Notes: generated from the sequence alone by a model not told the origin. DNA of 55,247 nucleotides from Chloroflexota bacterium (GCA_012515125.1 JAAYYY010000038.1:1-55247); one strand, 5' to 3'; counted from the stretch's first letter, positions 8,504 to 37,898 are shown. Translations and numbers: made by a program.

Positions 8504-8528
8504 CGGTGAGTACCGGAAGGAGCAGGGC

Positions 8529-10688: not shown

Positions 10689-12229
10689 CCCGCGCCGTCG
10701 TCGGCCGCTCCGTCAGAAGCGCGGCGCTGGCGCCAGAAGAGATACAACGCCAGCAAGGCAAACCCGGCGACGAAGAGCACGACCACGGCCAGCGCCAGCC
10801 AGAGCAGGCTCGTGCGCACAGGGGGCGTTGCCGCGCCGGGGAGGCCGCCGGGCATGGGGGTCGCAGCGGCCCGATCCACGACCTGTAGGGCCGCGCCGGA
10901 CGCCGCCTCTGCCGCCGCCTCGACCAGAAAGAGCGGGGGCCCGCCGATGATGCACGCTTCGTAGCAGCGGGCGCCGTCGAGCCGGATCTCGTATGCGCCG
11001 TCGCTGGCGCGGATGGTGCGCTCGTTGCCAAGGCTATCGACCAGCAGCGCTTCCTGCCCCAGGGCCGGCACGCGCAGGGTCAGCGCCGTGGGCCCTTTGG
11101 ACCAGAGAACGCGCGTGACGCTTCCCGGCCGGCTGAAGGCGACGGCGTGATAATCGGCGCTGCTCTGATCCTCGACGCCGGTGAAGCCACGCAGCAGGCG
11201 GATGGTCGTGCGGTGGGCCTGGAAGGCAGGACGCTCGCTGAAATCGCCGCGCAGGATGCCAAAGCTCTCGCCGCCAGGATCGACGAGCACGTCGGAGAAT
11301 TTGTAGACGCCGACGCTCTCCACGCCGGCGGCAAAGGCCAGCGCATGGGCCTGGACGATATACCAGGCCTGCTGGTCGAGGTCCACCTGGAACTGGGGGC
11401 GCTCGACAGGCCAGAGAGGGTCGAGGGTCGGCGCGGCGTTGGTCTCGTTGATCCAGATCGGCTTGTCCAGCCCGTACTTCTGCTGGATCGCGTCCATCTG
11501 CTCGACGATTGTGGACACCGTCTCCGTGCGAAAGTAGATGTGCAGAGAGAGGACATCGAAGAAGTAGTCGTGGGCCGCCGCTTCGGGGTCGGCGCTGATC
11601 ACCTGGAGCAGCCGGTCGAGATACTGGGTGCGCCCGGCTTCGACGTCGTGCCAGTAGGTCAGGCCGGCGAGGTGGACCGTCACCTGCGGGTCGTGCTCCT
11701 TCATGACGAGGTAGGCGACTTTGAGCAGGCGGTAGTAATCCTCGACCGTGCCCTCGAACTCGTTGCCGTAGACGCCCATGTCGATGTCGGGCTCGTTCCA
11801 GATGATCCAGCGGTGGATGCCGCGCACGCTGTAATAGTCCACTAGCCGGCGCAGGAAGGTCGCCCAGAGGTTGTCGGGGTCGTCGATTGGCAAATCAAGG
11901 CCGCGCGGCAGTCCACTGTGGCCCGCGCCGTCGGAAGCCCAGAGCGGCGTGTGCTTGATCAGGCCGATTATCTCCCGATCGGCGTCGGCGCCATAGCCGA
12001 GCCATTCTTCCATGACGTGCAGCGTATTCCAGTCGTCGGGCCCGGTGGGCTGCAACTCGCTCCAATAGAAGAGGATGCGCTCCCAATCGGCTCCCAGATC
12101 GGCGGCCTGCTCCGGCGACCAGAAGGCTTCGACAATGCCGAAACGGGGCTCTTCCGCAGCGTCCGCGCGCTGGCCGGAGAGCAATAACAGGAGAGCACAC
12201 AGGGCCAGCAGAAAGGTTACACGTTGCAT
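10685..12229 (-). CDS. Secreted, C-terminally membrane-anchored clan GH-A-like glycoside hydrolase
   Basis: Signal peptide MQRVTFLLALCALLLLLSGQRADA; WIIWNEPDID and PIWINETNAAP as candidate acid/base and nucleophile motifs; C-terminal TM LLWLALAVVVLFVAGFALLALYLFWRQRR. Confidence 0.7.
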   Translation of the reverse strand: MQRVTFLLALCALLLLLSGQRADAAEEPRFGIVEAFWSPEQAADLGADWERILFYWSELQPTGPDDWNTLHVMEEWLGYGADADREIIGLIKHTPLWASDGAGHSGLPRGLDLPIDDPDNLWATFLRRLVDYYSVRGIHRWIIWNEPDIDMGVYGNEFEGTVEDYYRLLKVAYLVMKEHDPQVTVHLAGLTYWHDVEAGRTQYLDRLLQVISADPEAAAHDYFFDVLSLHIYFRTETVSTIVEQMDAIQQKYGLDKPIWINETNAAPTLDPLWPVERPQFQVDLDQQAWYIVQAHALAFAAGVESVGVYKFSDVLVDPGGESFGILRGDFSERPAFQAHRTTIRLLRGFTGVEDQSSADYHAVAFSRPGSVTRVLWSKGPTALTLRVPALGQEALLVDSLGNERTIRASDGAYEIRLDGARCYEACIIGGPPLFLVEAAAEAASGAALQVVDRAAATPMPGGLPGAATPPVRTSLLWLALAVVVLFVAGFALLALYLFWRQRRASDGAADDGAG

Positions 12230-12332
12230 AGAAGCGGCTTCCGGCGATGGTCTGGCATGGTCAGCGCCCGTATAATAGCACAAATGGGCGAACCGTCATG
12301 AAAGGAAGGGGCCGGTAGAAAGGATTCTAGCC

Positions 12333-14693
12333 ATGAGTACAACACAATTAAGGCCTGCACAGGAGGCGATTCTGGCCTACCAGGGCGGGCTTATGGCCGT
12401 CAGTGCGGTGCCCGGCAGCGGCAAGACGTTTACCCTTTCCCGGCTGGCTGCCCGGCTCATCGGCGACGGCCGGGTGGACGTGGAGGCCGGGCAGCGGGTG
12501 CTCGTCGTCACCTACCTGAACGCCAGCGTGGAGACGTTCCGGGCACGGATTCGCCAGCAGCTTCTGGGGCTTGGCCTCCCGGTCGCCGGATTTGACGTAC
12601 GCACGCTGCACAGCCTGGGCCTGGAGATCGTCCGCGAAGCGACCGGCGGCGAAAACGCCAACGAGATTGTCGTCGTAGACGAGATGCAGGCCCAGGGCTA
12701 CCTCTCGCAGGCGGTAACCAACTGGATCGATGCCTACCCGCAGATGTGGCGCGCCTTCCTGCCGGACGGGGACAGCGTGCAGATGAGGGCCCGCTGGCGC
12801 GAGATTACCGAGCGCACAGCCCAGGCCTTTATTCGCACGGCGAAGAACGAGCGCTACCAGCCGGCAGCCATCGAGGAGCGGCTGCAGGCGCAGGCCGGGA
12901 CAATGCCCGACGCAGCGAGCGTGGAAGATCAGAGCACGCTCGGGCAGGAAACGGCCGACGCCGGGCTGGCCCTGTTGTGGATGCTGAACGGCATCTATGG
13001 CCGCTACCAGACGATCCTGGCGCGGCAGGGGGCGCTCGACTTCGACGACCTGATCTGGGAAGCGGTGCGCCTACTGGAGACGCAGCCGAGCCTGGCAGAG
13101 ACGCTGCGCCAGCGCTGGCCCTTTGTGCTGGAAGACGAAGCTCAGGATAGCGTGCCGCTGCAGGAAGCGCTGCTCGGCGCGCTGACGGGGCCGGAGGGGA
13201 ACTGGGTGCGTGTCGGCGACCCGAACCAGGCGATCACGAGCACCTTCACGGCAGCCCATCCGCGCACGTTCAACGCCTTTCTCGACCGGCCCGACGTCGT
13301 CGCCCGGCCGCTGCCCAACTCTGGCCGTTCGGCGCCGCGCATCATAGCGGCGGCAAACCGGCTGTTGGAGTGGGTGGTGACCAGCCATCCGGTGCCGGAG
13401 GTAAGGGCCGAGGCCTTCCGTCCGCAGGAGATCCTGCCCGCCCCGGAAGGGGACGGGCAGCCAAACCCGGAGGATATCCCCAACAACATCCGCATCAAGG
13501 TCTACGAACAGCGCGAGGAACAGGAGCTGCCGGCTGTCGCCGGCCTGGCGCTGCGCTACGTGCGCGCCCGTCCCGACCAGACGGCGGCGATCCTCGTGCC
13601 GACGAACCGCACCGGCTACGACGTGGCCGAAGAGCTGGACCGGCTGGACGCGCCCTACGACAATCTGCTGCGCGGCGGGCTCCGGGAGCGAGAGATCGCG
13701 GCGGCGCTGCACGGCCTGCTGGGGCTGCTGGCCGATCCCCTGGATACGCGCGCTCTGGTGCAGGCACACGAAGCGCTGGCGGCGCTGGAGCACCCGGCGG
13801 CGGGCGACTTTGGCGCCATGAGCGACGAAGGCGGTCCCTCCCCCGAGCTGGCCCGCCTTCATTCGCTTCTGCGCAGCACGCACCAGCCAGAGGGGCTGAT
13901 TTTCCCCCGCTATGACGGGGAGGAGCTGGCGGCGCTACCGGCCGGCGTGGTCGGTGAGGAAGAGGTAGCCCGGCTGCAGCCTTTTCTGAGTTTCCTCCGC
14001 GGCATTTTTGCCCTGCGTGCATTGCCGGTGGACGATCTGACGCTGGCCCTCGCCGACGAGCTGTTCGCACGCCACACGGAGGACGAGGCCGATGGGCGCG
14101 TTCAGGAGTTTGATCTGTCCGTTGCTTACCAGATTGCCAACCTGATGCGGCGCTGGCGCGATCTGGAGCCGGATTGGCGGCTGCCGGAGCTGGCTGCCCA
14201 ACTGGGCGAGATAGCGACGGGCCGCCGGTTGCTGCCCGGCAGCGTGTCCGACGATATGGGCTTCGAGCCGCGTCCGGGGCGCATCACGCTGGCAACGCAG
14301 CACGGCGCCAAAGGGGCCGAGTGGGATGCGGTGTTCCTGGTCGGCATCGATGGCCTGTGGATACCCGGCACGCTCGAAGCGCCGTTCCTCGGCGTGCATG
14401 AGTTCCTGGGCGGCGACCCCACGGCGGAAGCGGCGGCCCGGTTGCGCTTTCTGATGGCCGGTGAGGACGGCGATTACCCCGGGCAGCATCCTGGCCGGAC
14501 GGCGACTGAATCGGCGCACGTCGAGGTTATCAGCGAAAGGCTGCGCCTGCTTTATGTGGGCATCACCCGGGCGCGGCGCTACCTGCACATCAGCCGCAGC
14601 CGCAACGTGCGCCGCTACGGCCGGGTGGAGCAGACCGAGCCGACCGAGGTCCTCGGCGTGTTGTACGAGTTCCTGCGGAATGGCGAGGGCTAG
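12333..14693 (+). CDS. UvrD/Rep/PcrA-like superfamily I ATP-dependent helicase
   Basis: Walker A VSAVPGSGKTFTLSRLA, Walker B FVLEDEAQDSVPLQ, motif III VGDPNQAI, motif V/VI QHGAKGAEWDAVFLVG...LRLLYVGITRARRYLHIS. Confidence 0.9.
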   Translation: MSTTQLRPAQEAILAYQGGLMAVSAVPGSGKTFTLSRLAARLIGDGRVDVEAGQRVLVVTYLNASVETFRARIRQQLLGLGLPVAGFDVRTLHSLGLEIVREATGGENANEIVVVDEMQAQGYLSQAVTNWIDAYPQMWRAFLPDGDSVQMRARWREITERTAQAFIRTAKNERYQPAAIEERLQAQAGTMPDAASVEDQSTLGQETADAGLALLWMLNGIYGRYQTILARQGALDFDDLIWEAVRLLETQPSLAETLRQRWPFVLEDEAQDSVPLQEALLGALTGPEGNWVRVGDPNQAITSTFTAAHPRTFNAFLDRPDVVARPLPNSGRSAPRIIAAANRLLEWVVTSHPVPEVRAEAFRPQEILPAPEGDGQPNPEDIPNNIRIKVYEQREEQELPAVAGLALRYVRARPDQTAAILVPTNRTGYDVAEELDRLDAPYDNLLRGGLREREIAAALHGLLGLLADPLDTRALVQAHEALAALEHPAAGDFGAMSDEGGPSPELARLHSLLRSTHQPEGLIFPRYDGEELAALPAGVVGEEEVARLQPFLSFLRGIFALRALPVDDLTLALADELFARHTEDEADGRVQEFDLSVAYQIANLMRRWRDLEPDWRLPELAAQLGEIATGRRLLPGSVSDDMGFEPRPGRITLATQHGAKGAEWDAVFLVGIDGLWIPGTLEAPFLGVHEFLGGDPTAEAAARLRFLMAGEDGDYPGQHPGRTATESAHVEVISERLRLLYVGITRARRYLHISRSRNVRRYGRVEQTEPTEVLGVLYEFLRNGEG

Positions 14694-14709
14694 GGCTAGC
14701 TTAACGGCG

Positions 14710-14738
14710 TTGTACTAGAGGTAGTAACCGCTTACAAT
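14710..14738 (+). promoter_or_regulatory. Promoter TTGTAC-17-TACAAT immediately before a start codon (leaderless gene)
   Basis: -35 14710-14715, 17-nt spacer, -10 14733-14738, ATG at 14746, no SD. Confidence 0.6.
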
Positions 14739-14745
14739 AGCAATC

Positions 14746-16083
14746 ATGACGACTGACAATCCCTTCTTCCATCGTGGTGCGATCCGCCGCGCTGAGGAGT
14801 TCTACGGGCGGCAGAACGAGATCGGCCAGGTTCTGGGGCTGTTGCGCAACGGGCAAAGCGTTTCGCTGATCGGCCCGCGCCGGATTGGCAAGAGCTCGCT
14901 TCTCCTGCACCTTGTGCGCCCCCAGGTACGGGAAGCGCACCAGCTCAATACGTCCAGCATCCTCTTCGTTCTGCTGGATTGTCAGGAGTTTGGGGGCTCG
15001 CTGCCGGAGGAGGTCTACGAGGCCCTGCTGGCGGAGATCGTGGAGCAGGCTCATGAGGTCGGATGCGTGCTCGACGACGTGGACCGTTATGGAACCTACC
15101 GCTCGTTGGACCGCGTGCTGAACCAGCTCAGCCAGGCGGGGGTCAACGTCGTCGTCCTGCTTGACGAGTTTGAGCTGATGGCCGGAAACCCGCGTCTGAC
15201 GCCTTATTTCTTTGCGCGGCTACGCGGCCTGACGACGAAGTATGGCCTGGCCTATCTGACGGCGAGCCAGCGACCGCTATTCGACATCACAGCCGACGAA
15301 GAGATCCTCAGCTCGCCGTTTTTTAACATTTTTGTGACGCTGCCGCTGGGGCTTTATAGCGAGGACGAGGCGCGCGGGCTGTTAGCCGTGCGGCTCGAAG
15401 GGACGGGCGTTACCTTCCCCGAACCGCTCTGCGAGCATCTGCTGTACCTGGTCGGCTACCACCCCTTCTTCCTGCACGTGGCCGGGTATCACGCTTTCCA
15501 GGCCTTGCTGCAGGGTCGGTCGCTGGAGACAAAGGCCGAGCTGGGGCAGCTCGACGCCGCGGTCGAAGTGGAAGCGGATTCACACCTCAGCTATCTCTGG
15601 CAGAACCTGAACGGGGAGGAGCAGTATACGCTCGCCACGCTGGAAGGGCCGGTCGATAGCCTGCGGCTCCTGGAACAGCAGTGCCTGATCCAGGCGGCGA
15701 ACGGCGAGAGGGCTGGCAACCCGGCCGGTAGCTTCACCTATACCAGCGAGATGCTGCGCCGCTTCGTCCGGCGGCAATCGGTCCCAGGCGTGATCCAGGC
15801 CGGGCCGTTTGTCATCGACGAACAGCGTCACTCCGTGCGCGCGGATGGTCAGGAGCTGAACCTAACCACCTCCCAGTTCGACCTCTTCGCGCGCCTCACC
15901 AGGGACGCAGGGCAGGTGGTCCACAGCGACGATCTGGAGACGGCAGTCTGGGGCGAAATTCTGGTGGACGATCCCGACCGGCTGAAGACCCTGATCAAGC
16001 GGCTGCGGCGGGCGATAGAACCCTACGACGACTGGATCGTCAGCGAGCGCGGGGTAGGCTACTCGCTTCGCACGCCGGATTAA
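14746..16083 (+). CDS. STAND-like P-loop ATPase fused to C-terminal OmpR/PhoB-type winged-helix DNA-binding domain
   Basis: FYGRQNEIGQVL, Walker A IGPRRIGKSSLL, Walker B VVVLLDEFELM; C-term DGQELNLTTSQFDLFARLTRDAGQVVHSDDLETAVWG...LKTLIKRLRRAIEPYDDWIVSERGVGYSL. Confidence 0.85.
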   Translation: MTTDNPFFHRGAIRRAEEFYGRQNEIGQVLGLLRNGQSVSLIGPRRIGKSSLLLHLVRPQVREAHQLNTSSILFVLLDCQEFGGSLPEEVYEALLAEIVEQAHEVGCVLDDVDRYGTYRSLDRVLNQLSQAGVNVVVLLDEFELMAGNPRLTPYFFARLRGLTTKYGLAYLTASQRPLFDITADEEILSSPFFNIFVTLPLGLYSEDEARGLLAVRLEGTGVTFPEPLCEHLLYLVGYHPFFLHVAGYHAFQALLQGRSLETKAELGQLDAAVEVEADSHLSYLWQNLNGEEQYTLATLEGPVDSLRLLEQQCLIQAANGERAGNPAGSFTYTSEMLRRFVRRQSVPGVIQAGPFVIDEQRHSVRADGQELNLTTSQFDLFARLTRDAGQVVHSDDLETAVWGEILVDDPDRLKTLIKRLRRAIEPYDDWIVSERGVGYSLRTPD

Positions 16084-16115
16084 CCGCTCTCCGGACTCTT
16101 TGTGGCGATTGTATT

Positions 16116-19100
16116 GTGCAGCGTAAGGCGTCGGGTCAGGCGGACGTGAGCGTGTCGCCGGCCCGGCCGGACAGGCAAATGGGACCTTTACGGAAAGCGC
16201 GGCGGTTTATCTGGTTGCTGCTTCTGGCAGCGGCAACCGGCGTTGCCGCGCAGGGCCGCGACCCGTTGCCTGCGCAACCCTCCGCTTACTGGCGCTACGA
16301 TGCGCCCGGCCCTCTACAGATGGTGACGACGGGCGACCTGGACAACGACGGCATGCAGGAGTTCGTAGCCATCACGGAAGAGGGGCAGTTGCTCCTTCTG
16401 GGGGCCGACGGGCGCAATCGCTGGACGTACGAGCTGCGTGAGGGAACGCCTGTGCGGCATGTCATCACGCTCAACGTGGAGGGAGCCGTCGAGCCGGGGG
16501 GTGAGGTCCTGCTCGTCACGGATGACACGTTGCTGCTGCTAGACGAAGACAAGCGCGTCATGTGGCGGCGCGCGCTCGGCGGCGAGGCCGCGCCGGTAGA
16601 CCTGCAACCCTACGACCATGACGGCGACGGGAGTGAGGGCTTCCTCCTGGCCCTTTCCAGCGGAATCCTGCAATTCTATGACGGGGGCGGCGAGCTTGTG
16701 TGGCATTTCCCGGAAACACCGCCGGCGAGCGATAACCCGCTGCCGCAGCTCGCCGTCGGCGATGTGGACGGCGACGGGCAGGAGGAGATCGCCTTCAGCT
16801 ATTACCAGCAGTACAGCCGGCTTTCGCTGCTGGAGGGCAATCGCGTCGTTACCATGGCCCGGTCGCTAAGCGGGCAGGTGACGGCGCTGACGATGCCCCC
16901 GTTGGGCGAAGGCGGGCGTCACGTCATCGCCATGGGCAAGAGCTTCCGCGACCGGCACGAGCTGCTCGTCTACAACGAGAGCGGCGAAGAGCTCTGGCGG
17001 CGCACGCCGAACCTGCCGATTACGGCGCTTGCCTCCGGCAGCACGCCGGCTGGCGAGATACTCCTGGTCAGCACAAACGTGGGCACTGTCACGGCTTACG
17101 ATGCCGCGGGAACCCGCCTCTGGCGCTTCCAGCCGGATACGCCGTCGCGCACCGTTTCTGGCCTCTCTCCCAGTCCGAACGTCGTGGGCGAGAACCAGCC
17201 TGCCGTGGCGCTGACCCTCACCCCGCGCGAGGTTCGTGGCGGGACCGCCATCGAGGTGATCCTCCTCGACAACGGCGGGCAGCGTCTGCTCTCATTCCCT
17301 CTGGCGTCGGGCAGCGGGCAGAGCCGGCTGGTGGACAGCAACGGCGACGGGATCAGCGAGCTGTTGCTGGGGAGCTTTGGCACCCTCTCGCTCACCGATC
17401 CGGGTACGGGCGCGCGAAAGAACGGTCCGGCGCCGAACTGGCCCTACCGCGTCTCGCAGCCCCAGTCGATGCTCGTCGCCGATCTCGACGGCGACGAGCA
17501 GGACGAGCTGCTGGTGGGCGCGGAAGGGCTGATTCACCTGATCGAGAGCGAAGACGCGCGGACGCGAGGCCAGCTGCCGCTCGGCGGCACCATCACCGAG
17601 CTGGCGCTGGCGCACAATGAAGAGGGTATCCCGTTTATCGTGGCGGCGAACTTTAATCCTCCCGATCCACAAACGGCAGAGCCCACGCATGAAACGTGGC
17701 TGGAGCTGTGGCAGGCCAGCGGGCGCGTAGCCTGGACAGAACCCCAGCGCATCGCCGGCAGCGTCACGGCGCTGGCGGTCGGCGACCTGAACGGGGATGG
17801 CGCCGACGAGATCGTCAGCGGCACGGATAGCGGCCAGGTAATAGCCTACAGCCTGGATAATGAGATCCTCTGGCAGACCGAGCTCGGCAGCCCTGTCAGG
17901 CACCTGCTGGTCGTTGACGAGGGCGACGACGGCGCCGCCGAGCTGGTCGCCGTCACCCGGGGCAATGCCGTCACGCTGATAGCGGGCACCGGCCACAGCC
18001 GTGTCCTGACCTACTACAACGTCAACGACGTCGACTTCGTCTACCCGTTTCCGTACCGCGATAGGCTGGGCCGGGCGTTGCTCCTGGCGACCCACGACGG
18101 CGTGCTGCGCGGGCTCACGTGGGCGGGTCAGGAGGTCTGGCAGAGGGCCATCGGCGACGGCCCACTGACCATCGTGCGCCCGGCCGACGACGATTTCCTC
18201 ATCGGCACAGCCGACGACAGGGTGCACCTCTACAGCGTGCGCGAAGACGAGCTGCTCTGGACGCTGGAGGAGGTGGGTGGGGTACAGGACATTTACTGGG
18301 GGAATCTCGACGGCGGCGGCGCCCGCGACGTAGCCATCGGCAATGCAGCCGGCAACGTTCTGCTCCTGACCAGCGACCGGCGCGAGTGGGACCGGCTCAA
18401 TCTGGGCAGCGGCATCTTCCGGCTGGCAGGCTTGCGCGTGGGCGGCGGTGACCACACCCAGTTGGTGACGCTGACGCAGAACGGCGTGGTGCAGCTATTT
18501 GAAGCCAAGCCGAACCGCCCGCCACTGCTCGTTGCGCCGCAGACGGAGGTCGGGCCGGGACAATACGTCGTTCGCGTTACCGTGATCGAGGAGGAGACTG
18601 ACACGGTCACGGTTTCGCTGGAGACATGGGACGAGGCCGAGCGGCAGTGGGTTGTGCAACAAGAGCAACAGGCCGAAGGCAGCCATGACGTCTCCTTCAT
18701 CTTCAGCCCCAGGGCTGTGGGCCCGCTCCGCTATCGCTTTGTCTACGACGACGGCACCAACCGGGGCGTGGTGCAGCCGCCACCCGGCCCAGAGCCCCAA
18801 CCACCGGCCGGTCTGCCCAGGGGGCTGCTGGCGCCTGCCGGCCTGCTCCTCGTCCTGATGAGCGCCGTTCTCATCGTCCGCCAGGCGCTTTCCACGCCGG
18901 CGCGGGCGGGCCGTTTCTACAACCGTGTCAAGCAGCAGCCGGCGAACACGCTGCAGCTGGTGAACAGCCAGTACCGGAGCGAAGGAGGGTCGCCCGATTT
19001 CCTGTTAAGTCTTGCCAACCTCGCCCGCCGCGCCGGCAATGAGCCGCTGGCGAACCTGGCCAACGGCCTCTTCCTCCTGGAGACACGTCCTGACGCGGCG

Positions 19101-21050
19101 CTGCCGATCATCAATGGAGCGCTGAGCGAAGCCAGGGAGGTCGCCGTTCCGTGGCGCAGGCTGGACTCATGGCGGGCAACCTTCGAGATGGGCCAGCGGT
19201 TGCTGGAGGCGCCCACCATTACGGAGCTGGCGCTGCTGCGTCCACGACTGCTGCAACTGATCCAGATGCGACACGCAGCCGGAATGCCGTCGGCCGGCTT
19301 TGAGACGCTGCTGCGGGTGCTGGCCTGCCTGCGAGACAGCGAGCGGGTCGAGCTGGCCGAGGACCGCATCGTCTATCTGCACGAGGCGACCATCCTGCTC
19401 AACCAGATCAACCGGCGCCTGGTAGCGTGGCCCCGGACGGTCGATAACCGGCTTGTGGCGGCGATTGTCGAACGAAACCTCGGGCTGGTACGCGCCGAAA
19501 CGGAGACGCTGCGCGGGCAGGCCCAGCTAGTGGTCAGGCTGAAAACCAAGCGGTTGGCGGCGCAGGACGGACAGGCCGTCGTCGCCCTGGAGATCGAGAA
19601 CCACGGTCGCTCCCCGGCGGAAAACGTCGTGGTCATCCTCGAAGAAGACCCGGCGTATGCGGTGGGCAGCCCTCCCAGGACGCTCCCCGTGCTGTCGCCA
19701 GGGCGCAGCTATCAGGTCGAGTTCCAGCTTTCTCCGGCCGTCATGGACCGCTTCCGCGTCGCCGTTAGCATTCACTACGACGACCGGAACCACAAGGGGC
19801 GGCGGCTGGCCTTTGCCGATATGGTCCATCTGCTGCCGCCGGTTCGCGATTTCAAGCCCATTCCCAATCCATACACGCCCGGCACGCCGCTGCGGCGCAA
19901 CAGCCCGTTGTTCTATGGGCGCGAGGAGCTGTTTGACTTTATCGCCGACAACGTCGATCGGATTACAGGCCGTAACGTACTGATCCTCGTCGGCCAGCGG
20001 CGCTCCGGCAAGACGTCGGCGCTCCTCCGGCTGGCCCAGCAGCTGCCGGAACGGATCGTGCCTGTGTACATCGACTGCCAGTCGCTGGGTGTGCTGCCGG
20101 GGATGGCGGCGCTGCTGCACGACATCGCCTGGCTCATCGCCGACGCCCTGCTTAGCCGAGGATACGACGTAACGGTACCGCCGCCGGCTGACTGGCGCGA
20201 CGACCCGGCCGGGGAGTTCCAGCGGCGGTTTGTGCCCTCGGTGCTGGGCAAGCTACCTCCGGGTACGACGCTGCTGCTCGTCTTCGACGAGTTTGAAGTC
20301 TTCGAGAAGCTGGTCGCCGACGAGATCCTGCCGCCCACCTTCTTCAGCTTCCTGCGCCACCTCATGCAGCACAGCGAGGGGCTGGGTTTCGTCTTCGTCG
20401 GCACCCAGCGCCTGGAGGAGATGGGCAGCGATTACTGGTCAGTCCTCTTCAACATCGCTCTCTACAAGCAGATTGGCTTCCTCTCGCAGGAGGCGGCGAC
20501 GCGCCTGATTTGCGAGCCGGTCGCGCCACACATCATCTACGACGACCTCGCCCTCGACAAAATCTGGCGGGTGACGGCCGGACAGCCCTATTTCGTGCAG
20601 CTCGTCTGCTACACCCTCGTCAAGCGGGCCAACGAACAGCGGACCGGTTACGTGACGATAAGCGACGTAAATGCCGCTCTGGACGAGATGCTCCGGCTTG
20701 GCGAGGTCCATTTCGCCTACATCTGGCAGCGCTCCACGCGCGTCGAGCGGGCTCTACTCGCTGCCGTGGCCCATCAGCTGGACCGCGACATGCCCTTCCA
20801 CCCCGCCGACTTGGTGCTTTACCTGGAGGAGTACGGTTTTCGCTTTGAGCCGGCCGAGGTGACGGCCGGGCTGACACGGCTGGTCGAGCGGGAGATCATG
20901 CGGGAGATCACCGGCGATGCGGCCGTGCTCTACGAGCTGAAGATTGGCCTGGTGGGGCTATGGGCGGCGCAGAACAAGAGCCTTTCCCGGCTCTACGAGA
21001 GCGGGAACGGGGCGACGGAGGAGCGGCCCGCCCGTCGCGAGCACGCTTAG
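16116..21050 (+). CDS. Large transmembrane receptor-like ATPase: extracellular FG-GAP/VCBS-like repeat region, one TM, cytosolic helical and CARDB/Ig-like domains, C-terminal P-loop ATPase
   Basis: Signal-like segment near residue 23 (MGPLRKARRFIWLLLLAAATGVAAQ); repeated calcium-type loops (GDLDNDGMQEF, YDHDGDGSEGF, GDVDGDGQEEI, VDSNGDGISEL, ADLDGDEQDEL, GDLNGDGADEI); TM GLLAPAGLLLVLMSAVLIV; Walker A LVGQRRSGKTSALL; Walker B LLLVFDEFEVF. Confidence 0.85.
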   Translation: MQRKASGQADVSVSPARPDRQMGPLRKARRFIWLLLLAAATGVAAQGRDPLPAQPSAYWRYDAPGPLQMVTTGDLDNDGMQEFVAITEEGQLLLLGADGRNRWTYELREGTPVRHVITLNVEGAVEPGGEVLLVTDDTLLLLDEDKRVMWRRALGGEAAPVDLQPYDHDGDGSEGFLLALSSGILQFYDGGGELVWHFPETPPASDNPLPQLAVGDVDGDGQEEIAFSYYQQYSRLSLLEGNRVVTMARSLSGQVTALTMPPLGEGGRHVIAMGKSFRDRHELLVYNESGEELWRRTPNLPITALASGSTPAGEILLVSTNVGTVTAYDAAGTRLWRFQPDTPSRTVSGLSPSPNVVGENQPAVALTLTPREVRGGTAIEVILLDNGGQRLLSFPLASGSGQSRLVDSNGDGISELLLGSFGTLSLTDPGTGARKNGPAPNWPYRVSQPQSMLVADLDGDEQDELLVGAEGLIHLIESEDARTRGQLPLGGTITELALAHNEEGIPFIVAANFNPPDPQTAEPTHETWLELWQASGRVAWTEPQRIAGSVTALAVGDLNGDGADEIVSGTDSGQVIAYSLDNEILWQTELGSPVRHLLVVDEGDDGAAELVAVTRGNAVTLIAGTGHSRVLTYYNVNDVDFVYPFPYRDRLGRALLLATHDGVLRGLTWAGQEVWQRAIGDGPLTIVRPADDDFLIGTADDRVHLYSVREDELLWTLEEVGGVQDIYWGNLDGGGARDVAIGNAAGNVLLLTSDRREWDRLNLGSGIFRLAGLRVGGGDHTQLVTLTQNGVVQLFEAKPNRPPLLVAPQTEVGPGQYVVRVTVIEEETDTVTVSLETWDEAERQWVVQQEQQAEGSHDVSFIFSPRAVGPLRYRFVYDDGTNRGVVQPPPGPEPQPPAGLPRGLLAPAGLLLVLMSAVLIVRQALSTPARAGRFYNRVKQQPANTLQLVNSQYRSEGGSPDFLLSLANLARRAGNEPLANLANGLFLLETRPDAALPIINGALSEAREVAVPWRRLDSWRATFEMGQRLLEAPTITELALLRPRLLQLIQMRHAAGMPSAGFETLLRVLACLRDSERVELAEDRIVYLHEATILLNQINRRLVAWPRTVDNRLVAAIVERNLGLVRAETETLRGQAQLVVRLKTKRLAAQDGQAVVALEIENHGRSPAENVVVILEEDPAYAVGSPPRTLPVLSPGRSYQVEFQLSPAVMDRFRVAVSIHYDDRNHKGRRLAFADMVHLLPPVRDFKPIPNPYTPGTPLRRNSPLFYGREELFDFIADNVDRITGRNVLILVGQRRSGKTSALLRLAQQLPERIVPVYIDCQSLGVLPGMAALLHDIAWLIADALLSRGYDVTVPPPADWRDDPAGEFQRRFVPSVLGKLPPGTTLLLVFDEFEVFEKLVADEILPPTFFSFLRHLMQHSEGLGFVFVGTQRLEEMGSDYWSVLFNIALYKQIGFLSQEAATRLICEPVAPHIIYDDLALDKIWRVTAGQPYFVQLVCYTLVKRANEQRTGYVTISDVNAALDEMLRLGEVHFAYIWQRSTRVERALLAAVAHQLDRDMPFHPADLVLYLEEYGFRFEPAEVTAGLTRLVEREIMREITGDAAVLYELKIGLVGLWAAQNKSLSRLYESGNGATEERPARREHA

Positions 21051-21059
21051 GGGCGTAAC

Positions 21060-21554
21060 TCAGAAGGTCAGCTCGCGGGGACGCCAGAGCGCCATCAGCT
21101 GAGCCTGCCCATCGGCCCGCAGCCCCTGCCAGCGTTCGACGGGCAGCGCGACGACGGCGAGAGCGGCGGTGGGCAGCCTCTCGTCTTCGCCGGTCAGCTC
21201 GTCCAGCAGCTCCTCGAGTCCGGGATTGTGGGCCACGACGAGCACGCGGCTGTGGTCGTCGGAGAGGCGGCTCAGCGCGTCTATGAAAGTGGAGGCATCG
21301 GCCAGATAAAAATCGCGCGACTGCTCGATGGGACCCTCGTAACCGCAGGCTTCGGCTACGAGGCGGGCCGTCGTGCGGGCCCGGACGGCGCTGGAGCTGA
21401 GGATCAGGTCGGGTAGCAACTCCTCATCCCGCAGGAGCCGGCCCATGCGGGGTGCGTCGCGTTCGCCCCGGCTGTTGAGCGGGCGTTCGTGGTCGGAGAG
21501 CGTGTCAGACGCCCAGCTCGACTTGGCATGGCGCAAGATCAGGATCGTCTTCAT
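21060..21554 (-). CDS. sixA: SixA-type histidine phosphatase family protein
   Basis: MKTILILRHAKSSWASDTLSDHERPLNSRG...VLVVAHNPGLEELLDELTG. Confidence 0.88.
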   Translation of the reverse strand: MKTILILRHAKSSWASDTLSDHERPLNSRGERDAPRMGRLLRDEELLPDLILSSSAVRARTTARLVAEACGYEGPIEQSRDFYLADASTFIDALSRLSDDHSRVLVVAHNPGLEELLDELTGEDERLPTAALAVVALPVERWQGLRADGQAQLMALWRPRELTF

Positions 21555-21784
21555 TCGTCCTCCCGGCGCAGGAAAAATGTATCGCGAAATTATACCCGTT
21601 ATCTGTACCGGGTCATAGATTGGCGGCGTCTTTCCATGTTATACAGAGGGAGCACGGGCTGCTCCGCGACCGGGAGCGGCTGGATGGCGGGGGGATAGGA
21701 GCCGGTTCCACCGGCTTCGACAACCGATGCAAGGCGGCAGCGACGGACTGGCACGACACAGAACCACAGGATAGGAGAACCAAT

Positions 21785-22741
21785 ATGCCTGACATTGGCT
21801 ACGCGCTTTCCAGCGAAGAACATGGACCGAACGATCTGGTGCGCAACGCCCAACGCGCGGAGGAATCTGGCTTTCGCTTCGCCCTCATCTCTGATCACTA
21901 CCATCCCTGGGTTTCGGCCCAGGGCCATAGCCCGTTTGTCTGGAGCGTCATCGGGGGCATCGCCCAGGCGACCGACGCCCTGCGCTTGGGCACCGGCGTA
22001 ACCTGCCCGATTATGCGCATTCACCCGGCGATCATTGCCCAGGCTGCGGCGACTTCGGCGGCCATGATGCCGGGCCGCTTCTTTCTGGGCGTAGGCACCG
22101 GCGAGAACCTGAACGAACACGTTCTGGGAATCCGCTGGCCCCCCTTCGACGTCCGGCTCGATATGTTCGAGGAAGCCATCGAGATCATCCGCCTGCTGTG
22201 GGAGGGCGAAAACGTGAGCTACTGGGGCGAGTTCTACACGGTCGAGGATGCCCGCCTCTTCACCGTGCCCGATTCCCCCCCACCCCTCTATGTCGCCGCG
22301 AGCGGGGAAGTGATGGCCGAAGCAGCCGGCGAGCTGGGCGACGGCTTCATCACCACGTCTCCGAAGAAAGAGTTGGTCCAGGCCTACGGTAGCGGGGGCG
22401 GCGAAGGGCCGCGCATCGGCCAGCTAACCGTCTGCTGGGCGCCGACGAAGGAAGAGGCAATCGAGACCGTTTATAAGATCTGGCCGAATAGCGGGTTGCC
22501 GGGCGAGCTATCCGCCGAGCTGCGCACGGTTGAGCATTTCGAGCAGGCGGTGAAGTTAGTCACAAAAGAACAGGCCTCTAAAGATATGCCTGTCGGACCC
22601 AATGCTCAGGAGCATATTGACGGCATTCAGAAATACCTCGACGCCGGTTTCGACCAGGTCTACATTCACCAGATTGGGCACGAGCAGGAGGGCTTTTTCC
22701 AGTTCTACGCGCAGGAGGTCTTGCCCAGCTTTCACAACTAG
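21785..22741 (+). CDS. F420-dependent LLM-class oxidoreductase (G6PDH-like family)
   Basis: MPDIGYALSSEEHGPNDLVRNAQRAEESGFRFALISDHYHPW; GTGVTCPIMRIHPAIIAQAAATSAAM; GVGTGENLNEHVLG. Confidence 0.88.
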   Translation: MPDIGYALSSEEHGPNDLVRNAQRAEESGFRFALISDHYHPWVSAQGHSPFVWSVIGGIAQATDALRLGTGVTCPIMRIHPAIIAQAAATSAAMMPGRFFLGVGTGENLNEHVLGIRWPPFDVRLDMFEEAIEIIRLLWEGENVSYWGEFYTVEDARLFTVPDSPPPLYVAASGEVMAEAAGELGDGFITTSPKKELVQAYGSGGGEGPRIGQLTVCWAPTKEEAIETVYKIWPNSGLPGELSAELRTVEHFEQAVKLVTKEQASKDMPVGPNAQEHIDGIQKYLDAGFDQVYIHQIGHEQEGFFQFYAQEVLPSFHN

Positions 22742-22755
22742 AGAGGAGAAATCTC

Positions 22756-23166
22756 ATGCAGTTTGAAGAGTTCAGTGGACAGGTACAGAATCTCGCGCGC
22801 CTTCCTTCGCAGGGAGAGACGATGCGCGCCGTCGCCGCCGTGCTGGAGACGCTCGGCGAGCGCCTGCACGGCAACCAGGCGGAGACGCTGGCAGCCCAGC
22901 TCCCGGCCGCCATCGGCGCCTACCTGCGCTTGGCCAAACGGAAAGAAGATTACGACCTCGACGAGTTCTTCCGGCGTGTGGCCGAGCGAGAAGGAGCCGG
23001 CGTGGATCTGCCTGGAGCCGTCCACCACGCGCGTGTCGTCATTCACGTGTTGCAGCAAGCCGTCTCACCCGGTGAGATTCGGGACGTCCTGGCCCAATTG
23101 CCCGAAAACTGGACGGCCCTTTTTGAGGCCGGACCGGAGGGAGAATTTGTAGCTGGAGACAAATGA
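22756..23166 (+). CDS. DUF2267-like protein
   Basis: MQFEEFSGQVQNLARLPSQGETMRAVAAVLETLGERLHGNQAETLAAQLPAAIGAYL; SD GAGGAGAA. Confidence 0.75.
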   Translation: MQFEEFSGQVQNLARLPSQGETMRAVAAVLETLGERLHGNQAETLAAQLPAAIGAYLRLAKRKEDYDLDEFFRRVAEREGAGVDLPGAVHHARVVIHVLQQAVSPGEIRDVLAQLPENWTALFEAGPEGEFVAGDK

Positions 23167-23226
23167 AGGTAAGGTATGATACCTCAGTGACTCAAGGCTT
23201 GTTCAACCTCAGAAGGAGAACAAAAG

Positions 23227-24261
23227 ATGGCAATGAAAGTAGGGATTAACGGTTTTGGCCGGATTGGCCGGGCAGCCTTCAAGATCATCCAGGAAGTACC
23301 AGAGCTGGAGGTCGGCGCTATTAACGACCTGGTCCCCACGGATAATCTGGCTTATCTACTCAAATATGACACGGTCTACGGGCGCTATCCCGGAACCGTC
23401 GAAGTAGACGGCGACACGCTCGTTGTAGACGGCAGGCGCTATCCTGTTTCACACGAGAAGGATCCGGCGCAAATCCCCTGGGAAGAGAATGGCGTCGAGC
23501 TGGTTATCGAATCGACCGGCGTCTTCACCACCGTGGATGCCGTGCGCAAGCACCTGGAGGCCGGGGCGCGGACAGTGCTGCTTTCGGCGCCGGCCAAGGA
23601 CGACATGGCCACTATCGTACACGGTGTGAGCAAAGTGGACCCAAACGAGAACATCCTCTCCTGCGCGAGCTGCACGACTAACAGCATCACGCCGGTAGTG
23701 GAAATCATGGAGCGGCACTTCGGCGTCGAAAAGGCGATCCTGACGACGATTCACGCCTACACCTCGTCGCAGGGCATTGTCGATGGGCCGTCGAAGAAGT
23801 GGAATCGCGGACGGGCCGGCGCAGCAAACTTCGTGCCCACGACGACCGGCGCGGCCATCGCCACAGCCAAGGCGCTCCCCTCGGTCGAGGGCAAGTTTGA
23901 CGGTATCGCTGTGCGTGGCCCGGTGCCCGTGGGCTCGGTCTCCGACCTGACCTTCGTGCTGGAGCGGAACACGACGGAAGAGGAAGTCAACAACATCTTC
24001 CGCCAGGAAGCCGCTTCGGAGCAGTACGAGGAGGTGCTGGCGGTGGCCGAAGATCCCATCGTCTCCTCGGACATTATCGGCGACGCCCACGCCTCTATCG
24101 TCGATCTGAACATGACCAAGGTCGTGGACGGCAACCTGGTGAAGGTACTCGCCTGGTACGACAACGAGTGGGGCTACACCAGCCAGCTGGTGCGCGAGGC
24201 GCGCCGCTTTGCGCGGGCCAGGGAAAAGGCCACGGAGTACGTCGCCGAGCGCGGCGACTAG
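23227..24261 (+). CDS. gap: Type I glyceraldehyde-3-phosphate dehydrogenase
   Basis: VGINGFGRIGRAAFK, catalytic SCASCTTNSITPV, WYDNEWGYTSQLV. Confidence 0.97.
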   Translation: MAMKVGINGFGRIGRAAFKIIQEVPELEVGAINDLVPTDNLAYLLKYDTVYGRYPGTVEVDGDTLVVDGRRYPVSHEKDPAQIPWEENGVELVIESTGVFTTVDAVRKHLEAGARTVLLSAPAKDDMATIVHGVSKVDPNENILSCASCTTNSITPVVEIMERHFGVEKAILTTIHAYTSSQGIVDGPSKKWNRGRAGAANFVPTTTGAAIATAKALPSVEGKFDGIAVRGPVPVGSVSDLTFVLERNTTEEEVNNIFRQEAASEQYEEVLAVAEDPIVSSDIIGDAHASIVDLNMTKVVDGNLVKVLAWYDNEWGYTSQLVREARRFARAREKATEYVAERGD

Positions 24262-24288
24262 GCCGAAACAGCCTTTAGCACAGCAAGC

Positions 24289-24330
24289 GACACCTCCCGG
24301 CAGCGGATACCGCCGGGAGGTGTCTTTCTT
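24289..24330 (+). terminator. Rho-independent terminator downstream of gap
   Basis: GACACCTCCCGGC (24289-24301), 10-nt loop, GCCGGGAGGTGTC (24312-24324), perfect 13-bp stem followed by a T-rich tract. Confidence 0.92.
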
Positions 24331-24336
24331 TTCTGG

Positions 24337-27300
24337 TTACGATCCCTGTTCTGGTTCGGTGGAGGGAGCCCGTTGCGCCTCGCCCAGGCGGACGCGCACC
24401 CGGTGTGTGCCCCCGTCGTCAACCAGCGGGAATGAGTCGCCCTCCTGGCGCTCGCCGTCCAGTTCCAGAGAAACGACGGCGTTGCCGGACGGGTCATTCT
24501 CGACGGTGATCTCGTAGGTGGTAGCGCCGCAGCGATAACGCACGCGGTAGCCGGGCCAGTGCGGCGGAATGGCGGGCCGCAGGCGTAAGCGACCATCCTC
24601 GCGCCGTATGCCCAGGATGCCTTCCAGGCCCAGCCGGTACATCCAGCCGCTGGAGCCGGTGTACCAGGTCCAGCCGCCTCGTCCGGTGTGCGGCGGCACC
24701 CCGTAGACGTCGGCGGCGATGACATAGGGCTCGGCCTTGTAATGATCGGCCAGTTCCTGCGTCTCAGTGCGGTAGATCGGGTTGGTCAGCCGGTAAAGGG
24801 CGTCAGCCTTCTCGGCCTGGCCCAGCCCGGCGTAGGCCCAGATCGTCCAGAGGGCGGCGTGGGTATACTGCCCACCGTTTTCGCGAATACCGGGGAGGTA
24901 GCCCTTAATATAGCCGGGATCCCGCGGCGTCCGGTCAAAGGGGGGCGTAAAGAGCAGGATCAGGCGGTCATCCGGACGCACCAGGTGATCTTCGACCGAC
25001 TGCATGGCGCGCCGGACGCGCTCAGGATCGGCGGCGCCGGACAGTACCCCCCACGACTGGGCGATGGCGTCGATCCGGCACTCGCGGTTGGCCGACGATC
25101 CGAGTGGGGTGCCATCGTCGTACCAGGCCCGCAGATACCAGTCGCCGTCCCAGGCGTGCCGCTCGATAGCCGCCTTGAGGCGCCCGGCCTGGCTGCGGTA
25201 ACCGGCTGCCAGCTCCGCTTCGCCAACGCGCTCACAGAGAGCGGCAAAGGCAGTTAGCGTGGCATGGAGGAACCAGGCCAGCCAGACGCTCTCCCCGCGC
25301 CCATCGATGCCGACGCGGTTCATGCCGTCGTTCCAGTCGCCGCCGCCCATCAGCGGCAGGCCATGCCGGCCCGTTGTCGAGCCGCGGCGCAGCGCTCGCC
25401 GGCAGTGCTCGAAGATAGAGTAGCTCTGCGCGGTGCGCGGGTATTCCCTGTAGCGATCTTCCTCGCCGGGCTCCAGCGGCTTGGCTTCCAGGAAAGGCGC
25501 CTCCTCATCGAGCACGCTGGTGTCGCCGGTCACAGCCACATAATGGGCCGTGACAAAGGGGAGCCAGAGCAGATCGTCGCTAATCCGCGTGCGCACGCCA
25601 CGACCCGAAGGCGGATGCCACCAATGGAGGACGTCGCCCTCTTCAAACTGGTGGGCGGCGGCGCGGATGATATGCTCGCGGGCCAGGTCCGGCCGGCTGT
25701 GCAGCAACGCCATAACGTCCTGTAGCTGGTCGCGGAAGCCATAGGCGCCGCTGGACTGGTAGAGAGCCGAGCGGCCCCACAGACGGCAGGCCAGTGACTG
25801 GTAGAGGAGCCAGCGATTGAGCAGAAGGTCCATGGCGGGGTCAGGTGTTTCCACCTGCACGGCGCCAAGAATCTCATCCCAGAGCTGCCGTGTGGCCTGC
25901 CAGGCGGCGCTGACTGCGTCCGGTTCCAGGAAGCGGCGCAGGAGCTGTTCGCTGTGGTCGGCGTCGGCTCCCTGACCGATCAGGAAGTAGATCGTCTTGC
26001 TTTCGCCGGGTTCGAGGTCCACGTGCATCTGCATGGCGGCGCAGACATCCCTGCCGGGCGTCACGCGGTCCTCCAGGCCGATCCGGCCGAGGGCAGCCGG
26101 GTGGCGGAGCGAGCCGTAGCGACCCAGAAACTCGGCGCGATCGGCGGTCAGGCCGTGCGGCTCCGCACTGGTGGCGACAAAGGCCACGCGCCCCGTAAAC
26201 TCGACGCTGTACGGGTTGCGCAGGAGGAGCGCATGAAGCTCGGGCTCGTAGCGGGGCGTGATGTACTGCGCGCTGATCACACGGTCCGTGCCCAGCACCG
26301 GCTCGGCATAGAAGGTGGCGGTGAGCCGGCGAACGCGCGAGCGCCGGTTGGTCAGCCGCAGCTCGACTATCTTCACCGGCGCGTCGGGAGCCACAAACAA
26401 ACGCAGCTCCTGTTCCAGGCCGTGACTGTGGTGCTCAAAACAGGTGTATCCCGCGCCGTGGTGGACCAGGTAAGGAGCCCGGGCCGGCGCCGGCTGGGGT
26501 GTGGGCGTCCAGACCTCGGCCGTTTCCTCGTCACGCAGGTAGAGCACCTCCGAGGGCATGTCCGTTACAGGATCGTTGCGCCAGGCGGTCAGCCGGTTCT
26601 CGCCGCTGTTCACTGCCCAGGTATAGCCGCCGCCGCTCTCGCTGACGATGAAGCCGAACTCCTCGTTGGCGACGACGTTGATCCAGGGCAGCGGCGTGCG
26701 GACGCCGGGAGGCAGGTAGATGATGTACTCGCCATCGGAGAAGCCGCCATAGCCATTATCGAATTGCAGCCCATCCGGCCGCGGTACAGGCGGGATCTCT
26801 TCGAGTGTCGCCGGATCGACTGTGGGCAGGAACTCCGGCAGCGGCGTCTCCATTACGGCGAGAACGTCGAGCTGCTCTTCCAGCTCTCCAGCGCCGCCGT
26901 CGAGGATGACGCGGGCCGCCGAATGCAGCAGGTCGCGGTCGAGAGACGGGATATGGTCCTCCTTGAGGACGAAGATACCGCCGCGCTGGTTGAGCCGGCC
27001 CACAGCGTCCATCCGGTGCAGCAGGCGGTGGATTAGCGTGTGCAGTCCTTCAGAATAGCCCGAAGGCTCCGCGTTCAGGATGACAAGGGCGACTGGGCGC
27101 CCACGCCGCTGCCAATAGCTGTGGAAGCGGACGAGAGTCTGGAGCAGGCCAAGCTGCTCCTCGCTGCTGAGACGAACGAGCAGGATAGGATGGTCGCCCG
27201 AAATGCCATAGGTCCACAAGCCCTGCTGGCCCTTTACGTTCGCATCCAGCGTCTCGGCCGGGGCGTGCTTGGCCCGGTGGGGATAAAGCAGAAGGGAGAG

Positions 27301-32937: not shown

Positions 32938-33925
32938 AGATACTGGCTGGTCCTCCCTGAACACGTTCGGAAACAAGCGTCTGTGTCGTGATCATCTCAG
33001 CCTGCGACGACTCGATCATGTCTGCCGGTAGATCCTGTATGATCAGCAAAGGGGTGCTGCCATAGACGATGAAGCTCGTGACCCGGCTGCCGTAGGGGCG
33101 GTGCACATCCCCAGAGTAACCGTGGGCGCTCAGCACAACAAGGTCAACCGATTGTTCGACTGCCAGCCCGTGCAGGAGGCTGATGGCGCTGTCGCCGACG
33201 AGCAGATGGCTGGAGACTTTGTCGGTCGTCAGCCACGAGCCCAGCTGTGCGTGATACTTCTCTGCCTCTTCGCGGTTGCGGGCAACAACTTTCTCGACCA
33301 GTTCGGCGTCCTCGTCGCTCAGGGGCGTGCGGCGCGGCATCTCGGGCCGGGTGACGGCGGTAGCCAGCATCACCTCGGCGTTTCCATAGCGGGCCAGCGC
33401 CGAGACGACGGGCAGCACAAATTCTGCGCGTCGCGAGCCGTCGAGGGGCACCAAGATGCGCCGGTAGGTGAGTGATTCCAGGTCGGCTTCCCCGGCTTCA
33501 TAGGCGCGAATAATCATGACCGAGCGGTTGATGCGCAGGATGACCTTCTGGACCACACTGCTCACGTTCCAGCCGGTCAGACCGCTGCGGCCGTGGCTGC
33601 TGAGCAAGATCAGATCAACCTCATTCTCGCGGGCATATTCGATGATCCGTTCGGCAGCTGGGCCCTCCAGCTGCACCCCTTCAACCGCGAGACCGACACG
33701 GCGCAGCCGCTCGCTGATTTCGTCGAGATAGGCCCTTGTCTCCGCCTTCAGCAGGTGCCAGTGGAGGGGGTCGGTAGCCATCGGCCCCTGTTCCGGCACG
33801 GGCTCGACCACGTGAAGGAGCACGAGCTGGGCATTCGTCGCCCGCGACAGCGCAACGGCATGGGGCAGAACACATTCGGCGAGGGTCGAGCCGTCCAACG
33901 GGAGCAATATTCGTTCAAACATCAC
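32918..33925 (-). CDS. Universal stress protein, two tandem UspA domains
   Basis: MMFERILLPLDGSTLAECVLPHA...LILLSSHGRSGLTGWNVSSVVQKVI and RILVPLDGSRRAEFVLPV...DLVVLSAHGYSGDVHRPYGS. Confidence 0.92.
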   Translation of the reverse strand: MMFERILLPLDGSTLAECVLPHAVALSRATNAQLVLLHVVEPVPEQGPMATDPLHWHLLKAETRAYLDEISERLRRVGLAVEGVQLEGPAAERIIEYARENEVDLILLSSHGRSGLTGWNVSSVVQKVILRINRSVMIIRAYEAGEADLESLTYRRILVPLDGSRRAEFVLPVVSALARYGNAEVMLATAVTRPEMPRRTPLSDEDAELVEKVVARNREEAEKYHAQLGSWLTTDKVSSHLLVGDSAISLLHGLAVEQSVDLVVLSAHGYSGDVHRPYGSRVTSFIVYGSTPLLIIQDLPADMIESSQAEMITTQTLVSERVQGGPASIYARTNE

Positions 33926-34177
33926 ACTTACCCTCTACTTACTCAGCTCCCGGCCCGGAATAAAGTCAACCATAACCAACACAGGCCCAACTGCCCATAG
34001 CTCAGGGATACAAACCGGGACACATGTACGCTATGAGCTTCATTGGCTCCACAGAACAGACGAGGACGACCCACCTGCGCCGTTATAGCGCGGGAGTGTC
34101 GCCCTCATTATCAACACACCGGCAGGAAGCTACCGGCGCGACCGTCGCGGTCGGTGTGGCTGGCGCGGCTAGCGCGG

Positions 34178-35467
<1,290 letters not shown>

Positions 35468-35709
35468 CTACTCCTTTTTAGCGCCAGGGCCGGCACAATT
35501 GGATGGCTATAATGTCTGGAGCGGCGCGCTATTGACTCCCGCCCGCCAGCGCGCCATTTCGACTCTACCGATGATCATACAAAACGCGCCTCGATTTCGC
35601 AACTAGGGCGCCGCGCAGCCGGCCCACGCCTGTGTTTGAGCCAGAGGGAGGCGGCCCGTCGCCGGAGGCGAGTGGGCTCCGGCGGCCGGCCGTGGGAGCA
35701 GCGCGGAGG

Positions 35710-35738
35710 TTGCCAACAAGCCGTCCCGCAGCTATAAA
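35710..35738 (+). promoter_or_regulatory. Promoter TTGCCA-17-TATAAA directly upstream of histidine kinase start
   Basis: -35 35710-35715, 17-nt spacer, -10 35733-35738, ATG 35748, no SD. Confidence 0.55.
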
Positions 35739-35747
35739 TCGTCCACA

Positions 35748-37844: not shown

Positions 37845-37898
37845 GCCCTGCACCATCGCCTGAGCATTGCCGCCCTCGGGAGCTACCTGGAGATAAAG

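Follow-up and report, generated by a model that had tools for sequence, protein, structure and literature searches.

Why should a bacterium keep two related ATPases in adjacent genes, one joined to a DNA-binding domain and the other set behind a membrane segment and a large secreted region? This question is raised by a stretch of 55,247 nucleotides from a Chloroflexota bacterium (GCA_012515125.1, JAAYYY010000038.1:1-55247; the whole stretch is called the window here), in which two genes on the plus strand encode the proteins P1 (14746-16083, 445 amino acids, aa) and P2 (16116-21050, 1644 aa). An earlier interpretation, made without database searches (the sequence-only reading), had pointed to these two neighbouring co-directional open reading frames, both of which we found, and had proposed that the membrane ATPase senses an extracellular ligand and signals, perhaps by hetero-oligomerisation, to the ATPase-regulator. 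STAND ATPases, the class to which we assign both proteins, are nucleoside triphosphate (NTP)-dependent assembly switches; most of those known act as a single chain, with roles in transcription, immunity and cell death. Taken together, our analyses indicate that P1-P2 is probably a two-gene transmembrane signalling system, in which a receptor ATPase would switch a partner ATPase-regulator. The genome of the window is a 4.7-Mb draft (94.5% complete, 8.8% contamination), all genomes compared here are drafts or bins, relatives are named as recorded, without curated taxonomy, and domain counts depend on Pfam thresholds.

Two homologous ATPases in adjacent genes

The ATPases of P1 and P2 align in BLASTP with 24% identity across 331 aa (E=9e-13), and their family profiles match with E=1.2e-40 across 285 columns; sequence comparison thus confirms the homology that had been suspected by eye. 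Both are STAND NTPases, in the ORC/Cdc6 (ORC, origin recognition complex) clade of AAA+, as judged from nSTAND2 and AAA_22 matches, invariant motifs and the fold of P2. In P1, the domain spans residues 5-300 (14758-15645; Pfam nSTAND2, E=4e-17, 62.7 bits against a cut-off of 24, and alignment) and includes the Walker A motif GPRRIGKS (residues 43-50, 14872-14895), with G43, R45, G48 and K49 invariant, and a segment from the Walker B motif VVLLDE (136-141) through Arg160 (15151-15225), in which D140, E141 and R160 are invariant in the alignment. In P2, it covers residues 1249-1550 (19860-20765; Pfam AAA_22, alignment invariants, and Foldseek matches to ORC and a resistosome), and alignments place Walker A at 19992-20015, the end of Walker B at 20291 and the invariant Arg1414 at 20355-20357. 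This invariant arginine past Walker B aligns across the two types (P1 R160 with P2 R1414) and is a candidate arginine finger.

The P1-type (T1) and P2-type (T2) ATPases were represented by profiles. Walker A, i.e., the P-loop, is kept in 54/55 T1 and 54/55 T2 sequences and is invariant in the P2 orthologues. A further motif, SPFFNIF (P1 residues 190-196, 15313-15333), is invariant in the P1 alignments and, with 43/55 T1 having it, typifies most proteins of this type. When 110 sequences were placed in one tree, T1 and T2 fell on opposite sides of one 100% branch, the support being that of the Shimodaira-Hasegawa-like approximate likelihood-ratio test (SH-aLRT) alone and the tree having long branches. 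Sequence searches of phages, plasmids and the PDB added nothing on the ATPases: among 72,556 plasmids and 50,697 phages, none matched.

Domain architecture of P1 and P2

P2 has the predicted layout of a transmembrane receptor, comprising a signal peptide or anchor, an extracellular domain, a transmembrane (TM) helix and a cytoplasmic signalling domain. The predicted signal peptide or N-terminal anchor (16179-16250; RKARR-FIWLLLLAAATGVAAQ, with a hydrophobic N-terminal segment in most orthologues) precedes a tandem beta-propeller on the predicted extracellular side (residues ~59-795, 16290-18500), recognised from AlphaFold2, Foldseek, Pfam FG-GAP_3 and Beta-prop_CGLA matches, and motif conservation. 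The AlphaFold2 model of this ectodomain, based on 28 aligned orthologues, is all-beta (predicted local distance difference test, pLDDT, 86; predicted TM-score, pTM, 0.74), and its nearest solved folds in Foldseek are the tandem WD propellers of Utp21, GEMIN5 and DDB1. FG-GAP-type DxDxDG motifs lie at residues 74, 167, 216, 407, 456 and 557, both outer Asp of motifs 74 and 407 being kept in 35/35 sequences, and the conserved motifs of several blades are potential calcium sites. An Ig-like juxtamembrane domain follows (residues ~801-886, 18516-18773; model strands 755-840, conserved NRPPLL...YRFxYDDG), and then the one clear TM helix (residues 903-921, 18822-18878; hydropathy 2.52), with basic residues C-terminal to it. 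The ATPase lies behind a predicted TM segment and a large repeat region predicted to be secreted, as had been read from the sequence.

The cytoplasmic part of P2 begins with a helical solenoid (residues 925-1133, 18888-19514; pLDDT ~90 there in the AlphaFold2 cytoplasmic model), continues with an Ig-like (CARDB-like) domain (residues 1138-1240, 19527-19835; model strands 214-315, CARDB in 3/27 other T2) and the ATPase, and ends in a winged-helix-like segment that was assigned by inspection (residues 1563-1608, 20802-20939; model helices 639-648 and 655-667, strands 671-684). The cytoplasmic model of solenoid, Ig-like sandwich, ATPase and winged-helix-like end reached a pLDDT of 81 and a pTM of 0.51, a moderate value that makes the relative domain placement unreliable. 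Searched with Foldseek, it matched ORC subunits best, with a wheat resistosome and TnsC among the matches and with low whole-chain TM-scores; such matches are what one would expect of the ORC/STAND clade. In Pfam, P2 matched FG-GAP/PQQ-type propeller repeats and, above its cut-off, AAA_22, while AAA_16 fell just below its own. Within the family of the window, the ectodomain is the least conserved part of P2 (mean 0.39-0.57 per 100 residues), and the ATPase is the most conserved (0.68-0.80). Neither Pfam nor NCBIfam gave a histidine kinase domain (HisKA or HATPase_c) in P2.

P1 ends, as claimed earlier for one of the two proteins, in an OmpR/PhoB-type winged helix (residues 368-441, 15847-16068; Pfam Trans_reg_C, E=3e-14, 53.4 bits against a cut-off of 26.2), a domain with many solved relatives in the PDB, including RegX3, WalR and YycF. 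The best conserved stretches of P1 within the family lie just past Walker B (0.95) and in this C-terminal domain (0.77-0.88), where the recognition-helix region and the sequence DPDRLKTLIKRLR are almost invariant, which is suggestive of sequence-specific DNA binding. Hydropathy gave no TM helix in P1, so that it is predicted to be soluble, and Pfam found no receiver domain in it; the NCBIfam response-regulator models cover just the C-terminal region, from residue 335 onward. Thus, with neither a histidine kinase nor a receiver domain in P1 or P2, the proposed route would operate without a His-Asp phosphorelay, as the sequence-only reading had held.

Conservation within the family

The family set comprised 52 genomes, that of the window included, and its named members, among them Promineifilum sp. 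and Ardenticatenaceae bins, point to Promineifilaceae in GTDB terms. P1 occurs in 49/52 and P2 in 51/52 of these genomes, and 48 have both; in 40 of the 48 the genes lie side by side on the same strand, P1 preceding P2. Among the remaining eight, two have the genes at contig ends and six separate them truly (mostly genus g22). P1 and P2 belong to the core gene set of the family, within which the pair is inherited vertically. The homologues are therefore commonly adjacent, and of the other outcomes named beforehand as speaking against a signalling pair, neither was encountered: the two ATPases do not belong to unrelated families, and no described pathway was encountered that explains each gene. 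A comparison of neighbours across the family loci revealed no third gene generally kept with the pair, whose surroundings are housekeeping genes, i.e., enolase, GAPDH, cysteine desulfurase, MnmA and a Rel-type synthetase.

These observations bear on a conflict or defence role, in which P1 or P2 would sense an invader and STAND assembly would trigger the response, as in the two-gene nSTAND2 type; the sequence-only reading had mentioned such a role as a second option. A counter-invader function has been predicted for two-gene STAND operons (PMC8195603). Moreover, domains named after conflict systems (EAD7, TCAD9-NUDIX or NACHT-HEAT) occur in some of the paralogous pairs. However, P1-P2 is present in essentially all genomes of the family, among housekeeping neighbours such as enolase, GAPDH and MnmA, and its ATPase has no plasmid or phage relatives. 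Furthermore, the DNA-binding domain is the sole effector candidate, the P2 sensor faces outward in the predicted topology, and the PADLOC matches of P1 and P2 (PDC-S01, PDC-S27) are weak. Hence, we regard defence as an improbable function of P1-P2.

Pairing, co-divergence and modularity of T1 and T2

The named loci used for the pairing rate were fetched by T1 alone; loci L069-L088 were left out of the rates because they had been picked for matching both searches. A co-directional T2 directly adjoins T1 in 61/66 of these loci (flanks of at least 3 kb), with a median gap of 5 bp; of the five loci that lack it, four come from the family and have P2 elsewhere in the genome, and the fifth is L202. 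In 120 evenly drawn Chloroflexota genomes, T2 was found in 15 and T1 in 13, all of them among the 15 (Fisher p=1.2e-15), and the 17 T2 loci of that sample divide into 14 that adjoin T1 (one divergently), two at contig ends and one alone. The distribution of the pairs outside the family is patchy. The distance trees of the partners correlate with r=0.83 over 46 paralogous pairs, a value reached in 0/999 permutations (highest permuted value 0.32); inside orthologues only, with 9 pairs, the mirror-tree correlation was not significant by permutation. The comparisons support the view that the two homologous ATPases have co-evolved as partners.

The domains attached to the two ATPases vary. All 30 T1 proteins outside the family orthologues match nSTAND2 (30/30), and they carry Pkinase (Ser/Thr; 19), Trans_reg_C (7), GerE (LuxR helix-turn-helix, HTH; 2) or EAD7 (1); BTAD and more EAD7 fusions occur on T1 in other loci, and TCAD9-NUDIX or NACHT-HEAT domains in some paralogous pairs. 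The inputs of T2 include GAF (13/27), FG-GAP or PD40 propellers, multi-TM regions and one dCache-HAMP-GAF. In the named set, TM helices are predicted for 0/62 T1 and 58/61 T2. In three loci (L175, L179, L194), a single T2 stands between a T1 with a winged helix and a T1 with a kinase, as if one receptor addressed two outputs.

Several individual loci illustrate this range. At L189 (1-3627), a T2 with a histidine-kinase-like input, dCache-TM-HAMP-GAF before the STAND ATPase, is paired with a T1-kinase. Two T1-T2 pairs with TPR and HEAT/NACHT sensor parts follow one another in a single cluster of G091 (L072, 2112-11588). L202, titled Gemmatimonas phototrophica, encodes a fusion of an nSTAND2 ATPase with a sigma-54 activator and a Fis-type HTH (7992-10022); no T2 adjoins it, and secreted VCBS/FG-GAP-type proteins lie on its flanks.

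The variety of modules speaks to the idea that P2, with a BamB-like propeller and a housekeeping ATPase, serves as a scaffold or assembly factor of the envelope, and that P1 is an unrelated neighbouring regulator. P2 does show weak similarity to BamB/PQQ propellers. However, at least five types of T1 module and several types of T2 input take part in the pairing, and T1 is hardly ever found without T2; this is not what mere neighbours would show, and we consider this explanation very unlikely.

P2 might also signal without direct contact between the ATPases, if the two ATPases formed separate assemblies and a third component relayed the signal from P2 to P1, or if P1 mainly controlled P2 expression. 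In L179 (13448-14845) and L194 (8053-9471), loci of two different genomes, T2 is separated from the T1-kinase by a gene for a ~470-aa protein that has bactofilin-like 'GTVNG' repeats and, after them, TM helices; this membrane protein is possibly a third component or target of the triples, and its presence means that loci of this kind can include a third component. Against an indirect route, the family pair is accompanied by no conserved third gene, the partner phylogenies match closely, and the sharing of one T2 by two T1 outputs in the triples would fit a shared ATPase interface. Indirect signalling therefore seems to us an unlikely account, and we favour direct switching of P1 by P2.

Promoter, start sites and neighbouring genes

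The promoter TTGTAC-N17-TACAAT (14710-14738, plus strand; -35 box 14710-14715, -10 box 14733-14738), noticed before the first gene by the sequence-only reading, is present. The ATG of P1 at 14746 lies 7 nt past the -10 box, a leaderless layout in which transcription and translation are expected to start at nearly one base. The word TTACAAT stands 5' of 22/46 P1 orthologues, mostly 12-19 nt before the ATG, while shuffles gave an expectation of 0.6; the excess makes the leaderless layout a conserved trait of P1 and shows selection on the element. Counts of k-mers in the P1 upstream regions also gave less pronounced words confined to particular lineages, for example TTACCTTT. The gap between P1 and P2 is 32 bp, as first described, if P2 starts at the GTG at 16116, and 95 bp if it starts at the ATG at 16179; the latter opens a typical signal peptide, MGPLRKARRFIWLLLLAAATGVAAQ, and is the more plausible start. 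The choice leaves the main argument unaffected.

Directly 5' of the pair, a UvrD-like superfamily 1 (SF1) helicase is encoded (12333-14693), which occupies the same place in 17 of ~40 loci. It was considered as GajB, whose models it matches, yet Pfam and NCBIfam describe a general SF1 helicase and no GajA was seen beside it. Neither this helicase (17 loci) nor the SixA-like phosphatase (14 loci) is general, and both were ruled out as parts of the system. Further upstream, a secreted glycoside-hydrolase-like protein with a C-terminal TM helix (10685-12283, minus strand) is a neighbour kept in 8 loci. On the other side, the order of P2, SixA-like phosphatase, further genes, enolase, GAF/PAS histidine kinase and cysteine desulfurase resembles that of the Promineifilum-type loci L090 and L095, so that the region 21060-39071 looks syntenic. 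The open reading frame at 24337-32976 (minus strand, 2879 aa) resembles, by eye, a cyclic beta-glucan synthase with glycoside-phosphorylase-like parts.

Comparison with described systems

Like OmpR-family two-component systems, P1-P2 consists of adjacent sensor and regulator genes with an OmpR/PhoB-type output, and its relatives have outputs (LuxR, sigma-54) and inputs (Cache, HAMP, GAF) that are also those of response regulators and histidine kinases. Unlike those systems, it has no HisKA, HATPase_c or receiver domain, and STAND ATPases take their positions. Hence, since both defining domains are absent, P1-P2 is not a two-component system, despite the similar layout. In the hybrid two-component sensors of Bacteroides, an extracellular tandem propeller is followed by an Ig-like domain beside the membrane. 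The AlphaFold2 model of P2 has the same combination of tandem propeller and membrane-proximal Ig-like domain; however, its repeats are FG-GAP/PQQ-like and not Reg_prop, the ATPase replaces the histidine kinase, and the DNA-binding part is on a separate protein, P1. Regulators of the MalT and AfsR type are single cytoplasmic STAND transcription regulators with their own sensor repeats. As would be the case in P1, a STAND ATPase controls a DNA-binding domain in them, whereas in P1-P2 sensing would be placed on a second, membrane-bound STAND protein, P2.

The closest described system is the mobile two-gene nSTAND2 operon with a STAND core in both genes (Kaur et al., 2021, eLife, PMC8195603, Fig. 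6C), from which P1-P2 differs in defining features. In that operon, one partner, with eroded NTP motifs, bears the GT4 or HEPN effectors, and a hetero-toroid has been proposed, with an NTP-dependent assembly switch as its basis (PMC8195603). P1-P2 resembles it in that the genes adjoin and both encode a STAND ATPase core, and in belonging with P1, which passes the Pfam cut-off, to the nSTAND2 family; the conserved arginine of P1 and P2 is also compatible with the hetero-multimer proposed there. Unlike the operon so described, P2 gives no nSTAND2 match at E <= 0.1 (1/27 other T2 matches, under the cut-off), and both P-loops are intact. The P1, P2, T1 and T2 sets contain no GT4 or HEPN and have winged-helix, kinase and LuxR outputs instead, and the T2 partners are mostly membrane receptors. 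Moreover, that operon is described as mobile, whereas P1-P2 occurs throughout the family and its ATPase has no match in plasmids or phages. The literature searched, which covered few subscription papers, gave no description of a STAND receptor in the membrane that has a STAND regulator of transcription as its partner.

Proposed mechanism and meaning

We propose that the extracellular double propeller of P2 would bind a ligand or report the state of the envelope, and that the signal would cross the membrane by the TM helix and continue through solenoid and Ig-like domain to the cytoplasmic STAND ATPase of P2. This ATPase would contact its sister on P1 and alter the nucleotide or assembly state of P1, whose OmpR-type winged helices would then bind DNA and alter transcription. 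The signalling proposal of the sequence-only reading has thus held in its homologous ATPases, its conserved pair, its receptor-like membrane protein and its DNA-binding protein; ligand binding, direct contact of the ATPases, the direction of the signal, ATP-dependent switching and a DNA target are what we infer from them.

Several observations weigh against this interpretation. Co-conservation and co-divergence argue for a functional link and not for direct contact, and the operon is not obligatory, given that the genes lie apart in six genomes of the family. In k-mer counts that were used to look for an operator common to the regions upstream of P1, the promoter alone stood out. Additionally, five T2 proteins of the phylum sample from outside the family (L209, L210, L214, L221 and L222) have no TM helix, and membrane sensing by T2 appears common, not universal.

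Beyond P1-P2, we lean slightly towards regarding T1-T2 pairs as a distinct class of transmembrane signalling, in which a receptor and a responder STAND ATPase would form a mixed ATP-dependent switch, with inputs and outputs freely swapped and without phosphotransfer. If this is true, a bacterial lineage would have built sensor-responder pairs from two sister STAND ATPases, and signalling from outside to inside could be as modular as in two-component systems without a phosphorelay. Such pairs would offer a compact bacterial model for one STAND ATPase activating another, and hundreds of gene pairs that lack annotation in filamentous Chloroflexota would gain a functional class.

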